Assembly: GCA_039803925.1 (NCBI GenBank)
Contig: JBDRZL010000014.1
Span: forward strand, 1 to 56,374
Direction of reading: 5' to 3'
From: a candidate division WOR-3 bacterium
Lineage (GTDB): Bacteria > Hydrothermota > Hydrothermia > Hydrothermales > JAJRUZ01
Length of the DNA stretch: 56,374 nt
Shown: piece by piece, positions 5,576-56,244 of the stretch
Layout: each line of letters begins with the position of its first letter
How positions within the stretch are numbered: position 1 is the first letter of the stretch
Position numbers and translations under genes: made by a program
The notes under the pieces: model-generated
Database searches by the model: none
Told to the model about the DNA's origin: nothing
The model's input: the letters and a program-made list of their open reading frames with translations, nothing else

Positions 5576-6121
5576 TTATTTCTTTTTTGGTTTCATTATA
5601 ACAACAATTTGCCTATCTCCCACTTTTTTAATTTCCCCCTCAGGTTCTGCAAAATCCTTTACTTTTTCAAAGAACTTTTCCATTATTGCCTTACCCTGAG
5701 TATCAACTAAAACTATCTCCCTCCCCTTAAAAAATAACCTAACCTTTACCTTATGACCAGTTTCTATAAATTCTCGCATCTTCTTAATTTTAAGCTGAAG
5801 ATCATGTTCACTTGTGGATGGTCTGAATGAAATCTCTTTTTCTTCTGCAGTTTTTGTATGTTTCTTCTTTTTTTTCATTTCATATTTGAATTTTCCATAA
5901 TCAAGTATTTTACAAAGTGGTGGATTGTCTGTTGGAACTATCTCAACAAGGTCAAGACCCTTTTCATAAGCAAGTTCAAGAGCTTCCCTTGTCGGCATTA
6001 CCCCTAAAAACTTTCCATTCTCATCAACAACCTTTATCTCTTTTACCTTTATTTCTTCATTTATCCTATAAGGCTCTCTATCTCTTGCAACCGGACCTCT
6101 TGGATACCATTTTCTTCCCAT
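5576..6121 (-). CDS. infC: Translation initiation factor IF-3
   Basis: IF-3 binds the 30S subunit and checks start-codon choice. The 181-residue protein has the N-terminal YRINEEIKVKEIKVVDENG segment (around residues 18-36). A lysine-rich linker (EMKKKKKHTK) follows, then the C-terminal domain with KEISFRPSTSEHDLQLKIKK and HKVKVRLFFKGRE, all classical. It starts with ATG, not the AUU used for autoregulation in E. coli, and no Shine-Dalgarno sequence is seen. Its leader holds one of the GGTTCAANYCC motifs, with a second copy just beyond, at the thrS stop. The usual partners rpmI and rplT are absent; CoA-transferase genes follow. Confidence 0.96.
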   Translation of the reverse strand: MGRKWYPRGPVARDREPYRINEEIKVKEIKVVDENGKFLGVMPTREALELAYEKGLDLVEIVPTDNPPLCKILDYGKFKYEMKKKKKHTKTAEEKEISFRPSTSEHDLQLKIKKMREFIETGHKVKVRLFFKGREIVLVDTQGKAIMEKFFEKVKDFAEPEGEIKKVGDRQIVVIMKPKKK

Positions 6122-6143: not shown

Positions 6144-6154
6144 GGAATTGAACC
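6144..6154 (-). promoter_or_regulatory. T-arm-like leader motif before infC
   Basis: The minus strand reads GGTTCAATTCC, 22 bases upstream of the infC start. The base on each side can extend the GG/CC stem by one pair (AGG...CCT), giving a 3-bp stem with a TTCAATT loop. It is one of seven exact GGTTCAANYCC sites in leaders in this window. Both this copy and the next are followed by an A/T-rich run ending in TTTATTTT. Confidence 0.55.
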
Positions 6155-8220: not shown

Positions 8221-9783
8221 TTAAAAGCTAATCCTTTCTGAAACACTTTTTCCCTGTAAGAAAAGTAATAGATAATCCCTTCCACCTGCCTTTGAATCCG
8301 TTCCTGACATATTAAATCCACCAAAGGGATGAACATCAACAAGAGCACCTGTGCATTTTCTGTTAATATATAAATTACCAACAAAAAACTCTTCCTTTGC
8401 CTTTATTATGTTCTTTCTATTTAAAGAGAAAACTGAACCTGTTAATCCATAATCAGAGTTGTTTGCAATCCTTATAGCATCGTCAAAATCCTTTGCTTTT
8501 ATAACAGAAAGAAGAGGACCGAAAATTTCCTCCTGAGCTATCCTTGCATTTTCATCAACATCATAAAATATTGTTGGCTCTATGTAAAAACCTTCCTCTA
8601 AATCTGCTTTTTTACCCCCAGTTAACAATTTACCTTCCTTTTTTCCTATCTCAATGTAACTAAGTATCTTTTTCTCAGAGGACTCATTTATAACAGGTCC
8701 CATAAAGTAATTTTCCTTTGCTGGACCTATCTTTATCTTTTTTGTTTCCTCTTTAAGCATTTCAATAACCTTATCATAAACATCCTGATGAACTATAAGT
8801 CTTGAACAGGCAGAACACTTTTGACCTTGAAAACCAAAGGCTGAAACAATGGTCCATTTTACTGCATCGAGAAGATCTGCTTCACTATCAATAATTATTG
8901 CATCCTTACCTCCCATTTCTGCTATTACCCTCTTTAACCACTTCTGACCCGGCTGAACCTTTGAAGCAAGTTCATAAATATAAGAGCCCACCTCCCTTGA
9001 ACCTGTAAAGGCAATAAACCTGGTTTTAGGATGAGCAACAAGAGGGTCACCCACCTTAGAACCTGAACCAGTAAGGAAATTGAGAACACCTTTCGGGAGA
9101 CCTGCTTCATACATGAGTTCTACAAATTTATAGGCAATTAAAGGTGCATCAGAAGAAGGCTTCAAAATAACACAATTACCTGTAACAATTGCAGCAGTTG
9201 TCATTCCAAGAGTAATAGCAAGGGGAAAATTCCAAGGCGGAATTACTACTCCAACACCAAGGGGAATATAAAAATATTCTGGAATTTCACCCTCAAAAGG
9301 TGTTAAAGGCTGAAATTCTCCGTACCTTACAGCCTCTCTTGCATAGAATTCAAGATAATCTATAGCTTCTGCTGTATCAGCATCTGCTTCAGCATAATTT
9401 TTTCCTACTTCAAGAACCATCGTAGCAGAAAATTCGTGTTTCCTTTTTCTTAAAAGATAAGCAGCCCTCAAAAGAATGCTTGCCCTTTCTTTTGCAGGAA
9501 TTCTTTTCCATTCTTCAAAAGCTTTCCAGGCAACTTCAAGTGCCTTTTCAATGTGTTCCTTTTCAGCAATTGAAAATTCTCCAATTACTTCGTCTTTTTT
9601 AGAAGGATTTATACTTTTAAATGTTTCTTTTGTATAAATTTTCTCTCCTCCGATTATTAATGGATATTTTTTTCCAAATTCTGATTCTATTTTTTTAATT
9701 TCATTTTGAAAAATTTCAATATTTTCCTTTTTAGTAAAATCGGTAAAAGGTTCGTTTTTAAAGGGTTTAACATTAAAATTCAT
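8221..9783 (-). CDS. rocA: L-glutamate gamma-semialdehyde (1-pyrroline-5-carboxylate) dehydrogenase
   Basis: This enzyme oxidises glutamate semialdehyde to glutamate with NAD in proline/ornithine breakdown. The 520-residue protein matches the RocA-type single-domain enzyme (about 515), not the bifunctional PutA. Key residues are visible: PWNFP (Asn185), KPS (Lys208), the FTGSREVG coenzyme loop near 259-266, EMGGKD (Glu289) and FGFQGQKCSACSR (catalytic Cys323). A strong GGAGG site precedes the ATG. The leader begins with a GGTTCAATTCC motif just after the predicted promoter. A class III aminotransferase that could feed it semialdehyde lies far away at 51112; that link is inference. Confidence 0.93.
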   Translation of the reverse strand: MNFNVKPFKNEPFTDFTKKENIEIFQNEIKKIESEFGKKYPLIIGGEKIYTKETFKSINPSKKDEVIGEFSIAEKEHIEKALEVAWKAFEEWKRIPAKERASILLRAAYLLRKRKHEFSATMVLEVGKNYAEADADTAEAIDYLEFYAREAVRYGEFQPLTPFEGEIPEYFYIPLGVGVVIPPWNFPLAITLGMTTAAIVTGNCVILKPSSDAPLIAYKFVELMYEAGLPKGVLNFLTGSGSKVGDPLVAHPKTRFIAFTGSREVGSYIYELASKVQPGQKWLKRVIAEMGGKDAIIIDSEADLLDAVKWTIVSAFGFQGQKCSACSRLIVHQDVYDKVIEMLKEETKKIKIGPAKENYFMGPVINESSEKKILSYIEIGKKEGKLLTGGKKADLEEGFYIEPTIFYDVDENARIAQEEIFGPLLSVIKAKDFDDAIRIANNSDYGLTGSVFSLNRKNIIKAKEEFFVGNLYINRKCTGALVDVHPFGGFNMSGTDSKAGGRDYLLLFLQGKSVSERISF

Positions 9784-9821: not shown

Positions 9822-9832
9822 GGAATTGAACC
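9822..9832 (-). promoter_or_regulatory. T-arm-like leader motif before the P5C dehydrogenase gene
   Basis: The minus strand reads AAGGTTCAATTCCTT, giving a 4-bp stem (AAGG/CCTT) and a 7-base TTCAATT loop. It starts 10 bases after the predicted -10 box and 38 bases before the ATG. A pyrimidine-rich stretch follows it, then the Shine-Dalgarno sequence. Confidence 0.6.
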
Positions 9833-11573: not shown

Positions 11574-11584
11574 GGTTCAAACCC
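11574..11584 (+). promoter_or_regulatory. T-arm-like leader motif before the thiolase gene
   Basis: The plus strand reads GGTTCAAACCC, 12 bases after the predicted -10 box and 22 bases before the thiolase ATG. The stem is only two or three pairs here. Confidence 0.5.
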
Positions 11585-11606: not shown

Positions 11607-12785
11607 ATGAAAGAAATCTTTATTGTTTCAGCTGTTAGAACACCAGTAGGAAAAATACTCGGTAATTTATCTTCTTTTTCTGCAACAGACCTTGGGGGTA
11701 TGGTAATTAAAGAAGCAGTTAAAAGGGCAAATATTCCAAAGGAAAAAATTGATGAAGTTATAATGGGCTGTGTATTACCAGCAGGGCTCGGACAAGCACC
11801 CGCAAGAATAGCAGCAATAAAAGCTGGTTTAAACCCAGAAATTCCCTCCTTTACCATCAATAAAGTATGTGGTTCAGGTCTCAAAGCTATTATGCTTGGA
11901 GTTCAAGCAATAAAAGCAGGTGATATAGAAATTGCTGTATGTGGCGGGATGGAATCAATGACAAATGCACCTCATCTTACTTATTTGAGGGCAGGAATAA
12001 AATATGGAGAAGCTAAATTAATTGATCATATGGTTTATGATGGATTATGGTGTTCTTTTAATGACAAGCATATGGGTAATCTTGCTGAATATACTGCAAA
12101 AAAGGCAGGAATAAAAAGAGAAGAACAGGATAAATTTGCCTATGAAAGCCACATGAAAGCTGTAAAAGCTCATAAGGAAGGCAAATTTAAAGAAGAAATT
12201 TTACCAATAAGTATTAAAACAAAGGAAGGTGAAAAGATAATAGATAGGGATGAATCTGTAAGAGAGGATACTTCCCTTGAAAAACTTGCTGCTTTAAAGC
12301 CTGTTTTTGAAAAGGATGGAACAGTCACAGCTGGTAATGCACCTGGTCTAAATGATGGTGCTGCCTGTGTTATAGTAGCTTCAGAAAAAATGGTAAAGGA
12401 ATTAAATTTAAAACCTCTTGCAAGGGTAATTAGCTATTCTTCAAATTTTGTTGAACCAAAAGATTTATTTTTTGCTCCAATAGGAGCTATTAAAAAATTA
12501 ACTGAAAAATCTGGATTAAAAAATCCCAATGACTTTGATTTGATGGAGATTAATGAGGCTTTTGCAGCTCAAATTCTTGCTGATATAAAAGCCCTTGATC
12601 TTGATATAAATAAAATAAATGTTCATGGAGGAGCCATTGCAATAGGACATCCAATAGGAGCTTCGGGAGCAAGAATTCTTGTGACTCTCATTTATGCTCT
12701 CAAACATTATAATAAAAAGAAGGGATTTGCCGCTTTATGTCTCGGAGGCGGTGGTGCTGTTGGGTTATCAATTGAAATAGTTTAA
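11607..12785 (+). CDS. Thiolase (acetyl-CoA C-acetyltransferase family)
   Basis: This enzyme condenses or cleaves acyl-CoA with CoA. The 392-residue protein has the full catalytic set: Cys88 in NKVCGSGLKAI, His348 in GHPIGASGAR, and Cys378 in CLGGGGAVG. That length and the 'GGMESMTNAPHL' segment near residue 114-125 fit the biosynthetic/degradative acetoacetyl-CoA thiolase group. No acyl-CoA dehydrogenase or hydratase lies nearby, so the pathway (fatty acid, amino acid or ketone) cannot be set. The surA-type gene follows two bases later on the same strand. Confidence 0.93.
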   Translation: MKEIFIVSAVRTPVGKILGNLSSFSATDLGGMVIKEAVKRANIPKEKIDEVIMGCVLPAGLGQAPARIAAIKAGLNPEIPSFTINKVCGSGLKAIMLGVQAIKAGDIEIAVCGGMESMTNAPHLTYLRAGIKYGEAKLIDHMVYDGLWCSFNDKHMGNLAEYTAKKAGIKREEQDKFAYESHMKAVKAHKEGKFKEEILPISIKTKEGEKIIDRDESVREDTSLEKLAALKPVFEKDGTVTAGNAPGLNDGAACVIVASEKMVKELNLKPLARVISYSSNFVEPKDLFFAPIGAIKKLTEKSGLKNPNDFDLMEINEAFAAQILADIKALDLDINKINVHGGAIAIGHPIGASGARILVTLIYALKHYNKKKGFAALCLGGGGAVGLSIEIV

Positions 12786-21053: not shown

Positions 21054-22949
21054 ATGGCAACTTTAAGAATGAAAAAAGTTGAAATAATTGGTGAAAAGGA
21101 AAGACTTGATAAATTTTTAAGAAAATTACAAGAATTATCAGTTCTTCACATTGAGGATAAAGAACTTGAGGAAAGTATTGAATTTATAAAACCTGCTATT
21201 TCAGAAAAGGAAAAAGAAATCTTAAAAAAGATTGATAGAGCTATCGGTATGATTGAAGAAATAAGAAAGGAGGAGATGATTTCTTCCCATAAGATTGAAA
21301 AAAGAGAATTTAAAGACATTGAAGATTTATTTAACAATTTGGAGGAAATTTATTTAAAATATAAAAAAATAAAAGAAGAGGAAAAGAAGCTTATTGAAGA
21401 GAGAAATTTATATTTTTCCTTTACAAAAATACTTGAGGTTTTTGAAGAACTTATAGAAAAGGAGGAAATACATATACCTGAAAATTTTGAAGTTAAAGGC
21501 TTTCTTTTACCAAGGGAAGAACTTATTCTTTTATCAAGAATTAAGGAAAACTTTGAAAAGGATTATGGTGAAAAAGTAAAAATATTTGAGAGGGTTATAA
21601 AGGGAAATCAAATAGCAATTCTTATAATCTATTCTCCGGAAATAAAAGATGAGTTAAGAGAAAGGTTATGGAGGGAAGGTTTACCGGAAATAAGTTTACC
21701 AGAGGATATTGGAAAATTATCCTTTAAGGAAATGCTTAAATTTTTGAGAAATAAACTTGAAGAAATTCCCAAAAAATTTAAGGAGAATGAATTAAGAAAA
21801 AAAATATTTATTGATAAAAATTTAAATATCCTTTTTAACAGTTTCTATATATTGCAGGATATAAGGGATTTATTGAAAATAAAAGAAAAGGGCATATTTG
21901 TTACAAGATACTTTTTTTATTTAGAGGGATTCTTACCTGAAAAGGATATAGAATCTTTGAGAGAAATTGTAAAAGAAGAAAATGTTTATTTAAAGGAGAC
22001 AAATCCTATGAAAGAAGAGTATAAGAGAGTTCCTGTAATACTAAAAAACCCTTCTTTCTTTAAAAATTTTGAGCCTTTTATAGAATTTTTCTCATTACCT
22101 GTATATAGAACTTTTGACCCAACATCAGTTTTGGCAATTTTCTTTCCGGTATATTTTGGATTCATGCTTGGTGATATTGGTTACGGTTTTCTGAGTTTTC
22201 TGCTTTTTCTTTTACTTTACTTAAAGTTTAATAAAAATGAATTTATAAAGAGGATAAGTTTTGCTTATATTTTGGCAAGTATTTTTACAATTTTATTTGG
22301 TTTATTGTATATGGAGATGTTTGGCGATTTGCTTGAAAAAATTGGGTTTAAACCGATTTTTCATAGAGTTCATGATGCTAATACATATCTTTTAATTGCA
22401 ATTAGTTTTGGTTCATTTCAGGTTATACTTGGTTTTATTCTTGGTATTTATAATGCTTTAAATCTTGGGCACGGAAAGCATGCAATAGGTGTTTTTTCCA
22501 TGTTATTGGGTCTTTTATCACTTCTTTTACTTGCTGGAACAAGTCTTAAGATACTTCCAGATTATTTATCATCAATTCTTCTTATTTTTCTATTTTTATT
22601 TATGATAATGTCCTTTAAGTTTCATGGTCCTGCAGCACCAATTGAAATATTTTCTGCTTTTGGTCATATACTTTCCTTTGCAAGGCTTATGGCTATAGGA
22701 CTATCTTCTGCAATAATAGCAGTGATAGCAAATAAATTTGTAAGTATACTTCCGTCCATAATTATAGGAATCTTAGTAATGTTTTTATTTCATGTTCTTG
22801 CTTTTATACTCGGAATTTTTGACCCGACAATTCAGGGATTAAGGCTTCAATTTGTTGAATTTTTTACAAAATTTTATGAAGCAGGTGGAAGGGAATATAA
22901 ACCTTTATTTAAAAGATTAAAAGGGGTTCCACTCCCAGAAATAAAATAA
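21054..22949 (+). CDS. atpI: V/A-type ATPase subunit I (membrane a-like subunit)
   Basis: This is the large stator subunit that forms the ion half-channels beside the rotor ring. At 631 residues it has the cytosolic N-terminal arm (LRMKKVEIIGEKERLDKFLRKLQEL..., with coiled-coil segments to about residue 350) and a C-terminal membrane part. The membrane part has several helices, including the conserved stretch FFPVYFGFMLGDIGYGF near 363-379, and a late helix with FGHILSFARLMAIGLSSAI that carries the key Arg. That layout matches bacterial/archaeal subunit I. It sits three bases after the G/H gene. Confidence 0.93.
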   Translation: MATLRMKKVEIIGEKERLDKFLRKLQELSVLHIEDKELEESIEFIKPAISEKEKEILKKIDRAIGMIEEIRKEEMISSHKIEKREFKDIEDLFNNLEEIYLKYKKIKEEEKKLIEERNLYFSFTKILEVFEELIEKEEIHIPENFEVKGFLLPREELILLSRIKENFEKDYGEKVKIFERVIKGNQIAILIIYSPEIKDELRERLWREGLPEISLPEDIGKLSFKEMLKFLRNKLEEIPKKFKENELRKKIFIDKNLNILFNSFYILQDIRDLLKIKEKGIFVTRYFFYLEGFLPEKDIESLREIVKEENVYLKETNPMKEEYKRVPVILKNPSFFKNFEPFIEFFSLPVYRTFDPTSVLAIFFPVYFGFMLGDIGYGFLSFLLFLLLYLKFNKNEFIKRISFAYILASIFTILFGLLYMEMFGDLLEKIGFKPIFHRVHDANTYLLIAISFGSFQVILGFILGIYNALNLGHGKHAIGVFSMLLGLLSLLLLAGTSLKILPDYLSSILLIFLFLFMIMSFKFHGPAAPIEIFSAFGHILSFARLMAIGLSSAIIAVIANKFVSILPSIIIGILVMFLFHVLAFILGIFDPTIQGLRLQFVEFFTKFYEAGGREYKPLFKRLKGVPLPEIK

Positions 22950-22965
22950 AATTATGGAGGTAAAA

Positions 22966-23292
22966 ATGAAAAAACTAAAATTCCTTATGTATACAATATT
23001 CTTCATGGTAATCTCATCAGCAATTCTTTTGGCAGAGGAAGTAGCTCATGCTGCACAGGAAGCAGGTGGAGATGACTTTTCAAAACTACTCGCTCATATA
23101 GGTGTTGCTCTTGCTGTTGGTATACCTGGTCTTGGAACAGGTTGGGCTCAATCAAGAATTGGTGCAGCAGGTGCAGGAACAATTGCTGAAAGACCTGAAA
23201 CAGCCATATGGATTATAATAATGCTCGCGATACCTGAAACAACAGTTATACTTGGATTTGTTATAGCCTTTATGCTTATGGGTAAAATTTAA
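22966..23292 (+). CDS. atpK: V/A-type ATPase subunit K (rotor c-ring)
   Basis: This is the proteolipid ring subunit. I choose the ATG at 22966 over that at 22954 because GGAGGT at 22956-22961 lies just upstream of it; the product is then 108 residues. An N-terminal hydrophobic segment (KFLMYTIFFMVISSAILLAEE) precedes one c-type hairpin. Helix 1 is GVALAVGIPGLGTGWAQSRIG and helix 2 carries the ion-binding Glu in AIPETTVILGFVIAFMLMG. The Gln in GWAQ and the ET that follows Pro are the residues that form Na+ sites in known Na+-binding c rings. The hydrophobic N-terminus may be a cleaved signal or a third helix. Confidence 0.93.
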   Translation: MKKLKFLMYTIFFMVISSAILLAEEVAHAAQEAGGDDFSKLLAHIGVALAVGIPGLGTGWAQSRIGAAGAGTIAERPETAIWIIIMLAIPETTVILGFVIAFMLMGKI

Positions 23293-27970: not shown

Positions 27971-27974
27971 GGGT

Positions 27975-31015
<3,041 letters not shown>

Positions 31016-40935: not shown

Positions 40936-41781
40936 TTACCTTCTAAAAATTCTTGGATTTATGGTTATACCAAACCCGAATCTTGGAGAAAATCTCGGAG
41001 AACCACCTAAAAAGTGCTCAAGCTTTGTTAAAGCAAAATTTACAGAAATAAGAGGACTTACATACCTTCCTCCAACATTAAAATCCCTTCCATCAAAATC
41101 AAGTAAAATATGGAAATTTTTACTAATAATATAATATGCACCCCAGAAAACACCAAAAGTAATATCATGCTTTGTCTTACCACCAGTTAAAATATCAAAA
41201 TTAAAATACTTTGAACGAGAACCATACCCTACAAATCTTCCCCTACCAAGACCAAATGTGCCAACAATTTTATAAGTAAAATGTTTTGAAAAAACAAGGA
41301 ACAAAGAAAAGTTTTCTAAATTTCTCCTGTAATCTCCTTCCTTCCAATCCTCCCAGTAATAGGAATTATCATCATTATATCCACCTTCAGGTGGATTTGA
41401 GCCAGTTGAACTTATATATTTTCTGTATGTAATATCATAAATACCCACTGCAACAGCTGGTGTAACACCTATTTCAGGCATTATCCTGTAAATTAAATCA
41501 ATAGCATAATCACTTAAGGTATAAACTTTTAAAGTAAAAAAGAAATTTCCTAAGGACATTGTTCCATACATATCAAAATCAAAGGGCTTTGATGGATCAT
41601 AATTCTTGATTTCATAACCTGACTTAATCTCCCTCCTTAATCCAAAATGCGCATAAAGAGAAAACTCAGAATAAAAGGGTGTAGAAGGCAAAATAGCTGT
41701 TGGAATATCAATCTGAGAAAAGGAATTCTGAAACTCTCCGTATATTAAAGCCCAAACCAAAAATAAAGTTAACTTTTTCAT
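40936..41781 (-). CDS. Putative outer-membrane beta-barrel protein, hypothetical
   Basis: The 281-residue product has a clear signal peptide (MKKLTLFLVWALIYG). A Tyr/Phe/Gly-rich body of alternating strands follows (for example FNVGGRYVSPLISVNFALT), ending FGFGITINPRIFRR. The general look is an outer-membrane barrel with extracellular loops (GSNPPEGGYNDDNSYYWEDW near 130). No named family is recognised. It has its own strong promoter and starts with the leader motif, so it is expressed alone. The downstream gene is mutL, separated by 126 bases. Confidence 0.75.
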   Translation of the reverse strand: MKKLTLFLVWALIYGEFQNSFSQIDIPTAILPSTPFYSEFSLYAHFGLRREIKSGYEIKNYDPSKPFDFDMYGTMSLGNFFFTLKVYTLSDYAIDLIYRIMPEIGVTPAVAVGIYDITYRKYISSTGSNPPEGGYNDDNSYYWEDWKEGDYRRNLENFSLFLVFSKHFTYKIVGTFGLGRGRFVGYGSRSKYFNFDILTGGKTKHDITFGVFWGAYYIISKNFHILLDFDGRDFNVGGRYVSPLISVNFALTKLEHFLGGSPRFSPRFGFGITINPRIFRR

Positions 41782-41800: not shown

Positions 41801-41811
41801 GGATTTGAACC
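41801..41811 (-). promoter_or_regulatory. T-arm-like leader motif after a consensus promoter
   Basis: The minus strand reads AAGGTTCAAATCCTT, with stem AAGG/CCTT and loop TTCAAAT. It begins only six bases after TATAAT, so it would form the first bases of the mRNA, and it lies 19 bases before the ATG at 41781. Confidence 0.6.
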
Positions 41812-49766: not shown

Positions 49767-50321
49767 TTATCTCTTGGGTGTCACCTCTGTTTCTGCAATC
49801 CAGGCATCATAATAACCGAGGCTTCTTAACCTCATTTTCATTCTTTCAGCCTCTTCTCTTGAAATAAAATCACCCACTCTTACTTTATAATAAGGTGGAA
49901 TATATTCAACATAAACCTTATATTCTCCTTTAAGTCTTGCCTCTGCTTCTTTTGCGAATTTTTCAGCTTTTTCTTTATTTCCTGGTTTTGAAGCATCAAC
50001 AGCAAGAATCTGAACCCTGTAACCAAAAACTTTTGAAGGTGAAGGCTGAGGTGGAGGAGTTTCCTTTTTGGATGTGGGTGCAATAACAACTTCACCTTCT
50101 TCAACAGTTTCAGGTGCAGGGGATGGAGCAGGTGTTTCCTCTTCTGTGATAACCACTGTTTCTTCTCCTTTCTTTTCTTCTGGAGCAGGTTTCTTTTCTT
50201 CTTCTTCTCCAATAATTACAATCTCACTTTCTGTCTCTGCAGGTGTTGCTGGCTGAGCAGCTTGAGGTGCACAGAAATAATATAGACTAATAAAGAGCAA
50301 GAAATAAATTAACTTCTTCAT
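49767..50321 (-). CDS. SPOR-domain lipoprotein
   Basis: I start this at ATG 50321 (MKKLIYFLLFISLYYFCAP), where GGAGGAATT precedes it, and not the longer ORF from 50363; the latter would translate the leader motif. The product has 184 residues with a lipobox (SLYYFC, Cys17). A Pro/Glu/Ala/Thr-rich linker follows (about 20-105), then a C-terminal SPOR domain (YRVQILAVDA...YYKVRVGDFISREEAERMKMRL). SPOR domains bind denuded peptidoglycan at division sites. It is probably outer-membrane anchored. Confidence 0.88.
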   Translation of the reverse strand: MKKLIYFLLFISLYYFCAPQAAQPATPAETESEIVIIGEEEEKKPAPEEKKGEETVVITEEETPAPSPAPETVEEGEVVIAPTSKKETPPPQPSPSKVFGYRVQILAVDASKPGNKEKAEKFAKEAEARLKGEYKVYVEYIPPYYKVRVGDFISREEAERMKMRLRSLGYYDAWIAETEVTPKR

Positions 50322-50350: not shown

Positions 50351-50361
50351 GGATTTGAACC
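50351..50361 (-). promoter_or_regulatory. T-arm-like leader motif before the SPOR lipoprotein
   Basis: The minus strand reads GGTTCAAATCC, beginning eight bases after the predicted TATAAT and 29 bases before the ATG, ahead of the Shine-Dalgarno sequence. The stem is only GG/CC, without clear extension. Confidence 0.55.
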
Positions 50362-53845: not shown

Positions 53846-53874
53846 TTGAAATTTTCAAATTAATATTGTATAAT
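53846..53874 (+). promoter_or_regulatory. Predicted promoter of the P460-marR operon
   Basis: TTGAAA (53846-53851), 17 bases, consensus TATAAT (53869-53874). Transcription would start within the palindrome that follows (53876-53894), so a bound repressor would block it directly. Confidence 0.7.
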
Positions 53875-53875
53875 T

Positions 53876-53894
53876 TAGTTGGTATTACCAACTA
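53876..53894. promoter_or_regulatory. 19-bp palindrome, probable MarR operator
   Basis: TAGTTGGTA-T-TACCAACTA is a perfect 9+1+9 inverted repeat starting two bases after the -10 box. Its size and position suit a MarR-type dimer, and a MarR-family gene is second in this operon (54440). Autoregulation is inferred. Confidence 0.7.
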
Positions 53895-53897
53895 TTT

Positions 53898-53914
53898 TAG
53901 GGTTCAATCCCCTA
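53898..53914 (+). promoter_or_regulatory. Perfect T-arm-like stem-loop in the P460-marR leader
   Basis: TAGGG/CCCTA form five pairs around the loop TTCAATC, the exact shape of a tRNA T-arm (5-bp stem, 7-base loop, GG-TTCAA-N-Y-CC core). It follows the palindrome and precedes GAGGAGG and the ATG at 53936. Confidence 0.65.
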
Positions 53915-53935
53915 ATATTAAAAGAGGAGGTTATA

Positions 53936-54415
53936 ATGAAGGATTTAATTTTAAAGGCTATGATGAGCACATCCTTTTTTGTGCTCATCTCCTCAACAAA
54001 AACTTACTATCCTGAAAATTACAGAAACTGGTTCCATGTTAAAACTCTAATTCTTGAAGAAGGTCATCCACTATTTGAAGCCTTTGGAGGTATTCACCAT
54101 GTATATGCAAATGAAAAGGCTTACAAAGCTCTCTTAAATAATGAAAAAGTTTTCCCTGAGGGTTCTGTATTTGTTTTTGACCTTCTTGAAGTGGTTAAAG
54201 AAAATAATTCAGTGGCAGAGGGAAAAAGGAAGGTTCTTGCCTATATGAAAAAGCATGGTAAAAAATTATTTGCAGAAACCGGCAACTGGGAATTTGCTGC
54301 CTTTGCAGAAGGAGACCCTTCAAAACAGATTGTTAAGGATGCTAAAAGGGAATGTTTCAGTTGTCACGCCTCTCAGAAGGAAAAAGATTATATTTTCAGT
54401 GGTTGGAGAAAATAA
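53936..54415 (+). CDS. Cytochrome P460-like heme protein, exported
   Basis: From ATG 53936 (behind GAGGAGG) the product has 159 residues. It begins with a signal (MKDLILKAMMSTSFFVLISS). The body has YPENYRNWFHVKT...GHPLFEAFGGIHHVYAN near 24-60, FPEGSVFVFDLLEV near 70-85, and near the C-terminus CFSCHASQKEKDYIFSGW, one c-type heme site (CxxCH). This is the P460 / cytochrome c' beta fold, known to handle hydroxylamine or nitric oxide in some bacteria. The heme-crosslinking Lys cannot be assigned here. It leads the operon that encodes the MarR protein. Confidence 0.85.
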   Translation: MKDLILKAMMSTSFFVLISSTKTYYPENYRNWFHVKTLILEEGHPLFEAFGGIHHVYANEKAYKALLNNEKVFPEGSVFVFDLLEVVKENNSVAEGKRKVLAYMKKHGKKLFAETGNWEFAAFAEGDPSKQIVKDAKRECFSCHASQKEKDYIFSGWRK

Positions 54416-54439: not shown

Positions 54440-55006
54440 TTGGAAAATTTAGATTTTAAAATCCTTTCCGGTCTTGAAAGAGTATCTGAAATTATGAAAG
54501 TTTTTTTAAGGAGGGAAAGTTCTAAATTTAAATTAAGTCCGACTCAGGTTCAAATCCTGCTTTCCCTCCTTTCTGAAGGGAATTTAAAAATAAAAAACTT
54601 GGAGAAAATTACTTCCCTTGATAAAACCACCCTTTCTAAGTCAATAAAAAATTTACAGAAAAAAAACTTTATTGAAAAAACTCAATCAGAATTAGACAGA
54701 AGAGAAAAAATCCTTAAGATTAAAGAAAATAAAAAAGAGAGCATAAAGAATTTCTCATTAAGTATAAATCTATTCAAAAAAGTATTAAAAAATTTTTCTG
54801 AAAAAGAAAAAGAAATTATTTTAAAGTTTATTTTTGATTTTATAGATTACTCCATTGATATGGGTCTTATAGGTTTACAGAAAATGTGTTCAAAATGTAT
54901 CTATTTTAAAATTAAAAATAATAGATTTTACTGCAAATTTCTTAATAGGGAACTTAAAATAAGAGATTTAAAGATAAACTGTTCTGATTTTGTAAGTATT
55001 ACATAA
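54440..55006 (+). CDS. MarR-family regulator with C-terminal cysteine cluster
   Basis: The 188-residue protein has a winged helix: LSPTQVQILLSLLSEGNLKIKNLEKITSLDKTTLSKSIKNLQKKNFIEKTQSELDRREK (pieces: TQVQILLSLLSEG, LDKTTLSKSIKNLQ, RREK wing) at about residues 33-92. The C-terminal extension holds four Cys (MCSKCIYF...FYCKFLNREL...INCSDF, roughly C-x2-C-x10-C-x16-C), which could bind a metal or Fe-S cluster as a redox or NO sensor. It begins at TTG 54440, 24 bases after the P460 gene. Likely target: the palindrome at 53876-53894. Confidence 0.85.
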   Translation: MENLDFKILSGLERVSEIMKVFLRRESSKFKLSPTQVQILLSLLSEGNLKIKNLEKITSLDKTTLSKSIKNLQKKNFIEKTQSELDRREKILKIKENKKESIKNFSLSINLFKKVLKNFSEKEKEIILKFIFDFIDYSIDMGLIGLQKMCSKCIYFKIKNNRFYCKFLNRELKIRDLKINCSDFVSIT

Positions 55007-55014
55007 AAAATTCG

Positions 55015-55025
55015 GGTTCAATTCC
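55015..55025 (+). promoter_or_regulatory. T-arm-like leader motif before the type IX secretion cargo
   Basis: The plus strand reads GGTTCAATTCC, 22 bases before the ATG at 55048, at the same distance from the start codon as the copies at infC and the thiolase gene. The stem can include a third G-T pair (GGG/CCT). A weak -10 (ACATAA) precedes. Confidence 0.5.
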
Positions 55026-55047: not shown

Positions 55048-56244
55048 ATGAAATTTTTAAGATTTTTAATATCAATAGGTTTAACATCTTATCTTTATTC
55101 CCAGACTTTACAGGATGCTCTTGATAATTATGATCTCAATTTCATAACAGGAGGTAATGCAAACTGGTTCTATCAAACAAACTATTATTATTACGATAAT
55201 GATGCTGCACAGAGTGGTACCATTACCCATAATCAGTTAACCTTTCTAAAAACAACCATCCAATCACCCTGTAGCTTAAAATTCTACTGGAGAGTTTCCT
55301 CAGAAGCAAACTATGATTTTTTAAGTTTTGTTAGAAAATATGCAGCCTCCCAACTATATGATAGAATTTCAGGAACAACTGGGAACTGGATACAGAAAAA
55401 AATAGTGATATTAAGCCCTGGAACAGACACAATGGTATGGACATATTCCAAAGATGGTTCGGGTTCTTCAGGACAGGATGCTGGATGGGTTGATTATGTG
55501 AGATATTTTCCAATAAACAACAACTTAGTAACACTTCAGGAAGCACTCGATAACACAAACTTAACCTTTTACAGTGATGGTAGTGCTCCCTGGATAGGCG
55601 AGACATGTTTCAGCTATGACGGTCAGGATGCTGCGATAAGTGGAAGAATACCCCACAACGGTTTCTCCCGTTTATATACAAATGTAGTAGGACCCTGTAG
55701 CTTAAAATTCTACTGGAGAGTTTCCTCAGAAGCAAACTATGACAGACTTTACTTTTTAAAGGATGATACTTTAAAAGATTTTATTTCAGGAACAACAGGA
55801 GGCTGGGTATTAAAAAGATTCATAATCAATGCCTCAGGGAATCACAGTATTAAATGGGTTTACTCAAAAGATGGTACAAACTCAAATGGTTCGGACTGCG
55901 CCTGGGTTGATAAATTTGAATATTTCCCCATAGGAACTGAGATATCAGAAAAAATTGATACTGAAAAATCTTACTTTGCAATTTACAATAATTTGGAAGG
56001 AGATTTAAAAATTAGGTTCTATGTTTCAGAAGAAGATACTAAGGATAAAATTGAATTGAGTCTATATAACATAACTGGAAGAAAAATGATTGATCTTTTA
56101 TCGAAAAAGGAAATTAAACCAGGGGAATATATACTTAATTTCAATCTCTCAAAAGATAAAAATCTTTTAAAGAGAGGTTTTTACTTTTTGAAATTTACAA
56201 CCTCTACAAAGAAATATACTAAGAAAATCTTAATTATAGAATAA
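55048..56244 (+). CDS. Secreted repeat protein with type IX secretion sorting tail
   Basis: The 398-residue protein has a signal peptide (MKFLRFLISIGLTSYLYS), then two homologous units (about 20-155 and 165-300). Each unit has a LQ(D/E)ALDN start, a CSLKFYWRVSSEANYD core and a W(V/I)-K(K/R)-I strand with VDxxxYFPI end. A C-terminal domain (about 310-398) of YNITGRKMIDLLSKKEI, GEYILNFNLS and GFYFLKFTTSTKKYTKKILIIE type (quoted in parts) is the Por/type IX sorting signal. It would cross the outer membrane and be surface-anchored. The repeats are like concanavalin-type beta domains. A 51-bp tract is identical in both repeats. Confidence 0.85.
   Translation: MKFLRFLISIGLTSYLYSQTLQDALDNYDLNFITGGNANWFYQTNYYYYDNDAAQSGTITHNQLTFLKTTIQSPCSLKFYWRVSSEANYDFLSFVRKYAASQLYDRISGTTGNWIQKKIVILSPGTDTMVWTYSKDGSGSSGQDAGWVDYVRYFPINNNLVTLQEALDNTNLTFYSDGSAPWIGETCFSYDGQDAAISGRIPHNGFSRLYTNVVGPCSLKFYWRVSSEANYDRLYFLKDDTLKDFISGTTGGWVLKRFIINASGNHSIKWVYSKDGTNSNGSDCAWVDKFEYFPIGTEISEKIDTEKSYFAIYNNLEGDLKIRFYVSEEDTKDKIELSLYNITGRKMIDLLSKKEIKPGEYILNFNLSKDKNLLKRGFYFLKFTTSTKKYTKKILIIE
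55266..55316 (+). repeat. 51-bp exact direct repeat, copy 1
   Basis: This tract, coding for CSLKFYWRVSSEANYD, is identical to 55692-55742 while the surrounding repeat sequences differ. Recent gene conversion or strong selection on this segment would explain it. Confidence 0.7.
55692..55742 (+). repeat. 51-bp exact direct repeat, copy 2
   Basis: Identical to 55266-55316, in the second unit of the secreted repeat protein. Confidence 0.7.

Follow-up and report, generated by a model that had tools for sequence, protein, structure and literature searches.

Within the window, a 56,374-nt stretch of DNA from a candidate division WOR-3 bacterium, positions 53846-53938 of the forward strand hold the control region of a gene for cytochrome P460 (159 aa; 53936..54415, with its ATG start codon at 53936; Pfam PF16694, E 3.7e-30). 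The region opens with a putative sigma-70-type promoter matching the consensus (TTGAAA-17-TATAAT, 53846..53874), in which a 17-bp spacer separates the -35 box at 53846-53851 from the -10 box at 53869-53874. It continues with a palindrome, TAGTTGGTATTACCAACTA (53876..53894), lying across the transcription start as a putative MarR operator, then with a leader hairpin resembling the T-arm of a tRNA (53898..53914) and, considering the standard 3' end of the 16S rRNA, a Shine-Dalgarno (SD) sequence, GAGGAGG (53924..53930). The hairpin reads TAGGG-TTCAATC-CCCTA, with a sixth pair added in the predicted fold, and contains the conserved core GGTTCAATCCC at 53901-53911; the predicted stability of the leader as a whole is not unusual (z = +0.95). 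The first-pass annotation had described this succession of promoter, palindrome, T-arm-shaped hairpin, GAGGAGG and ATG, and our reading of the sequence finds every part in place, including the start of the leader GGTTC 26 nt past the -10 box.

The next gene on the same strand (54440..55006) encodes a MarR-family regulator (Pfam PF01047, E 1.3e-11) that is also adjacent to P460 in other phyla and is probably a ligand-responsive repressor of the P460 operon. Within its coding sequence lies a GGTTCAAATCC core (54546-54557, reading SPTQVQIL), which was considered as a leader copy at 54547 and rejected as an apparent coding coincidence. Just past the MarR stop codon there is a second T-arm leader, GGTTCAATTCC (55015..55025, forward strand), located 22 nt before the ATG at 55048 of a gene (55048-56241) whose product is predicted to be secreted and combines repeated segments with a sorting domain of the Por type at its C terminus. 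No known Rfam leader or riboswitch scored above its gathering cut-off in the window, where the only Rfam matches were the 23S rRNA and two tRNAs; the 23S rRNA gene (27973-31014) has no 16S gene beside it in the window, the latter being on another contig (C7).

The palindrome is built as 9+1+9 and is unique in the genome. The window, being AT-rich, holds a fair number of palindromes with 9-bp arms (8 versus 4.85 +/- 2.9 expected), and the case for this one therefore rests on where it lies and on its counterparts elsewhere. Pairs of P460 and MarR genes were found in other phyla, and eight such loci were examined. At one of them (L109), two copies of TTTGGTAYTGCCAA, resembling the window's TTGGTATTACCAA, lie shortly upstream of the P460 gene (2900-2983); the operator core there is nearly the same (TTGGTATTGCCAA) and an SD is present, and the T-arm hairpin is absent. 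L114 (2795-2813) and L116 (2583-2601) carry TAGTT-N9-AACTA-like palindromes that also resemble the window's operator, with ~0.35 such palindromes expected by chance over all eight loci. Other palindromes were found at L110 and L112, and no clear palindrome was found at the remaining three loci, L111, L113 and L115. P460 and MarR with palindromic sites appear to form a conserved regulatory cassette across several phyla, and both the position of MarR as the next gene and the related palindromes at P460-MarR pairs elsewhere support the palindrome as its putative operator.

On comparison across genomes the palindrome and the hairpin are independent of each other, since the operator occurs without the hairpin elsewhere and the hairpin occurs without the operator at other genes of the family. 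P460 is absent from the related genomes G002 and G003, so the cassette was probably acquired. It had been proposed that the operator was inserted between the promoter and the hairpin; this is not supported, because the operator comes with the P460-MarR cassette and occurs at L109 without a hairpin, making it more likely that the hairpin was added to the cassette. The order of events was therefore probably acquisition of the cassette, followed by emergence of the hairpin before it.

The hairpin belongs to a class of leader elements defined by the motif GGTTCNANYCC, a 3-bp stem carrying a tRNA-type T-loop. A narrower version, GGTTCAAWYCC, occurs 132 times in the genome versus once for the reversed pattern (tRNA T-arms included), and 147 and 79 times in two congeners versus 0-1 for the reversed pattern (tRNA T-arms partly included). 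Outside tRNAs, 776 kb of the source genome (G000) contain GGTTCNANYCC 78 times; 61 of these copies are leaders of called genes, corresponding to ~9% of the 691 genes called. Of the intergenic copies that remain, most stand at a similar distance upstream of a reading frame that is short or begins with GTG. Three neighbouring reading frames of ~56 aa each have their own T-arm leader (L143 ~14636, 14859 and 15076; G000 C5 34636-35086), two of the three leaders being identical copies. The outgroup genome from the sister family (G004) has one leader among 615 genes (720 kb). These counts rest on stretches of 776, 400, 379 and 720 kb, of which those from G000 (776) and G004 (720) are contiguous contig stretches; the stretches from G002 and G003 were partly picked for holding the motif and their densities are biased upwards. 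Gene starts were assigned by a simple purpose-written caller, and for hairpin genes the start was chosen with the help of the hairpin.

A scan of 1031 starts that allowed single substitutions returned 69 matches in the sense orientation versus 4 in the antisense orientation. No substitution was accepted at G53, T54, A58, C61 or C62, and G52 and T55 were replaced in at most one copy each; C56 was slightly relaxed, and position 57 was free, with T and C accepted. The scan thus confirms for the leaders a 7-nt loop closed by G53-C61 and containing T54, T55, a slightly relaxed C56, and A58. Next to the core, pair 51-63 was found as GC in 28, AU in 24, UA in 7, GU in 7 and CG in 3 of 94 leaders. It is Watson-Crick in 62 of them where 32 are expected, and its covariation score was matched by none of 500 shuffles; the inner pairs 52-62 and 53-61 carry no covariation information, the core having been used to select the sequences. 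The outer stem pairs show no excess over column composition in the 94 leaders, and from this we take the selected stem to comprise the three pairs 51-63, 52-62 and 53-61. The exact 5-bp stem seen at P460, to which importance had been attached, is therefore not a feature of the class. In the tRNAs of the same genomes, G52-C62 is present in 42 of 42 and position 57 is only G or A; since the leaders accept T and C at this position, they follow a rule of their own.

Leaders elsewhere in the window illustrate the placement of the element. On the reverse strand they precede the genes for translation initiation factor IF-3 (GGTTCAATTCC, 6144..6154; ATG at 6121), an aldehyde dehydrogenase (9822..9832; ATG at 9783), a protein without a Pfam match (41801..41811; ATG at 41781) and a SPOR-domain protein (50351..50361; ATG at 50321), and on the forward strand those for a thiolase (GGTTCAAACCC, 11574..11584; ATG at 11607) and the ATP synthase c-subunit (GGTTCCACTCC, 22925..22935; ATG at 22966). 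The leader at 41801..41811 is kept in the G002 and G003 orthologues with the distance unchanged, and that of the SPOR-domain gene is kept in G002. The thiolase leader is present in the G003 orthologue, while the G004 orthologue has an SD in its stead.

Measured from the last C of the core, the start codon of genes lacking an SD is a median of 22 nt away (IQR 19-23, n=79); in genes with an SD the median is 24.5 nt (IQR 23-28, n=38; p=2e-6 for the difference). The search window extended from 8 to 40 nt, hence the sharp mode was not imposed, and in an earlier tally without a distance limit 28 of 35 copies lay 10-38 nt from a start. This confirms for the leaders a near-fixed spacing to the start codon of the kind expected for an SD-type initiation signal, and the P460 copy shows the usual spacing. 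About one third of the leaders also carry an SD, and for this reason the idea that the hairpin is a device solely for SD-free genes was rejected.

No such constancy exists with respect to promoters. Among 100 leaders the distance to upstream -10-like boxes is variable; 34 lie within 60 nt past the end of a same-strand gene and a further 16 overlap that gene, such that about half of the copies are operon-internal, located at the stop codon of the preceding gene or across it. A promoter or initiator element was rejected on both grounds. The 26-nt distance at P460, which had been considered longer than at other genes, is likewise nothing special, because the distance to the -10 box varies at all genes. 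An example of overlap is an AsnC-domain gene whose leader extends over the end of the upstream coding sequence (L039 8761-8796; G002 C1 49471-49508, L055) and is kept in both G000 and G002 despite the overlapped sequence being different.

Orthologous genes tend to share the element. Among 216 reciprocal best hits between G000 and G002, the hairpin is in both members of 14 pairs, in only one member of 7 and in neither of 195 (p=3e-17); for G000 and G003 the corresponding numbers are 7, 6 and 71. In the orthologue pairs compared, the hairpin is kept at similar spacing and the flanks have diverged. When the pattern was combined with ATGAAR and searched in 147 genomes of the phylum, each of the four family genomes gave 22-46 matches and the others 0-6 each, many of these resembling tRNA ends. 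All four family genomes sampled thus have the element and the 143 other genomes of the phylum show only background, leading us to reject a wider distribution within the phylum. Comparison of genomes shows a genuine and strict element that is strand-specific, takes its position from the start codon rather than from the promoter, is conserved in orthologues, and among the sampled genomes of the phylum is restricted to the family. We regard the existence of a family-specific, T-arm-like leader element linked to start codons as nearly certain. The first-pass annotation proposed that the hairpin acts as RNA, since its place is tied to the gene it precedes rather than to the promoter, and this receives strong genome-wide support from the tight spacing to ATG, the operon-internal copies, the covariation of pair 51-63 and the retention in orthologues.

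The sister family provides the best evidence on what the hairpin may do. The hairpin is absent from all 22 G004 orthologues of hairpin genes in G000. Where the G000 hairpin gene lacks an SD, the G004 orthologue has one in 14 of 16 cases, compared with 40 of 129 for non-hairpin genes lacking an SD in G000 (p=1.8e-5); the SD rate of these control genes is possibly underestimated owing to wrong starts. Pooling the three family genomes gives 24/29 versus 76/239, with shared orthologues reducing the independence of these counts. An altered 16S 3' end was rejected as an explanation, the standard sequence ...GGATCACCTCCTTT being identical in G000, G001, G003 and G004, and the conserved core of the leader contains no matching complement to it. 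SD use at hairpin-free genes is not much lower in the family. This outgroup comparison suggests that the hairpin does the work of the SD at the genes that carry it. Their products include IF-3, RRF, ribosomal protein S20, RpoD, H+-pyrophosphatase (H+-PPase), ATP synthase c, fructose-bisphosphatase, S-adenosylmethionine decarboxylase, TatA, DivIVA, and pilin-like and SPFH proteins, as well as DnaK and ribonucleotide reductase, which were identified by eye from sequence. So broad a set, mostly of housekeeping genes, is more readily expected of a general initiation signal than of a narrow regulon.

We therefore favor, as the probable though by no means settled reading, that the hairpin is an mRNA signal promoting translation initiation, replacing or supplementing the SD. 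The short stem-loop of the leader copies the tRNA T-arm (G52 G53-TTCNANY-C61 C62 plus one covarying pair) and is set ~19-24 nt ahead of the start codon, or a few nucleotides more where an SD is present. At ~20 nt ahead of the start codon it would be close to the side of the 30S subunit where the mRNA exits. There the hairpin may act as a positive initiation signal, probably by docking on the 30S subunit at this exit side or on a bound protein that recognizes T-loops, and would either substitute for the SD or cooperate with it. At P460 the hairpin appears combined with an independent MarR operator over the transcription start, such that transcription of the P460-MarR operon would be regulated by MarR and its translation would proceed through hairpin and SD. 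The fuller proposition, to which we give about an even chance, is that a second, structured ribosome-recruiting signal evolved in this family: a copy of the T-arm in mRNA, read at a set distance by the ribosome or a bound factor. Of the genes carrying it, roughly one in ten of the total, many would have had their SD replaced by this signal.

A search for what might read the hairpin (covering copies of TruB, small Trbp111/CsaA-type proteins and the 16S 3' end) found no receptor. Duplication of TruB was rejected, the gene being single-copy in 21/21 genomes, and so was an elbow-binding protein of the Trbp111/CsaA type as a shared receptor, small versions being present only in G001 and G003. The leader loop satisfies both the T-loop rule and the GUUCNANNC rule for Pus4/TruB, and TruB is predicted to convert U55 of the leader to pseudouridine.

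This fit counts in favor of an alternative in which the hairpin is a regulatory mRNA site: by binding it, TruB or some other tRNA-handling protein with affinity for T-arms would turn a large regulon down or up in response to tRNA level or growth. In E. coli, TruB modifies GUUC in mRNA too (PMC13062092). The invariance of GG/CC suggests a protein reader, and strict conservation also fits a protein-bound site. However, the genes are broadly housekeeping and include RpoD, IF-3 and ATP synthase, the replacement of the SD by the hairpin, gene for gene, points to a constitutive positive role, and no tested genome has more than one TruB; we consider a regulatory site possible but unlikely. It is more doubtful still that the hairpin serves mRNA stability, shielding transcripts from decay at their 5' end. 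Several leaders do follow a -10 box closely (e.g. 41801 and G002 C2a 16620) and could form the 5' end, but half of the copies are operon-internal at or before the upstream stop codon, spacing is set by the ATG and not the promoter, the selected stem has just 3 bp, and the stability of the P460 leader is ordinary.

The T-arm DNA of tRNA genes is a usual target of integrases, and the dispersed leader sites have a core identical to it, so that one could regard them as DNA elements, either promoter-near binding sites or mobile or integration-site remnants of tRNA genes. We judge this very unlikely given that the element is strand-specific and linked to the start codon, that copies are found mid-operon and within the ends of coding sequences, and that it is kept in orthologues while the flanks diverge and pair 51-63 covaries. 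Least probable of all is a chance resemblance to a T-arm at P460, in which the locus would be a promoter, a MarR operator and an SD alone. A single five-pair stem is in itself weak evidence, and the SD at P460 is strong. For the class, however, chance is refuted by the enrichment across the genome, the spacing and the retention in orthologues, and the P460 copy sits at the usual spacing.

Bacterial translation initiation is accounted for by SD pairing, by leaderless starts and by AU-rich leaders that lack structure. Should the initiation reading be correct, a tRNA-like structured signal standing in for the SD at many housekeeping genes would constitute a new class of initiation signal, and the family would offer a natural system for asking which part of the ribosome or which tRNA-handling protein reads a T-loop in mRNA. 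The presence of the hairpin in this family only, beside a sister family that uses the SD, would provide a before-and-after view of the origin of the signal. Full-text literature searches, with most subscription journals outside their scope, returned no earlier description of such a T-arm-like initiation leader.

Compared with known systems, the transcriptional part of the P460 locus would be ordinary: a near-perfect 19-bp palindrome over the promoter of a MarR-encoding operon is what is found in autoregulated MarR operons, and the window's version differs by the added leader hairpin. The leaders share with the tRNA T-arm the 7-nt TTCNANY loop and its closing by G53-C61, together with the G52-C62 pair of all 42 tRNAs checked. 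They differ in having neither acceptor stem nor D-arm, in a selected stem of three pairs, in position 57 (usually A, with T or C at times, where the tRNAs here have only A or G), and in their location in mRNA leaders at a near-fixed distance from the ATG. A tRNA gene or relic was rejected, as ARAGORN and Rfam detected no tRNA or cloverleaf at the leader sites checked. The tRNA-mimicking leaders exemplified by the thrS operator imitate the anticodon arm, each on behalf of one gene or of an amino-acid regulon; the hairpin similarly copies part of a tRNA into an mRNA leader, but it is a T-arm mimic common to functionally unrelated genes. All bases required by the TruB/Pus4 mRNA target motif (GUUC, GUUCNANNC) are found in the leaders, which differ by the additional, near-invariant GG/CC, and we know of no placement of TruB/Pus4 mRNA sites at a fixed distance before start codons. 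With the SD the hairpin has in common its linkage to gene starts, its near-fixed spacing and its occurrence at the genes that have an SD in the sister family; it differs in lying further upstream (19-24 nt), in lacking complementarity to the 16S 3' end, and in being able to coexist with an SD at the same gene.
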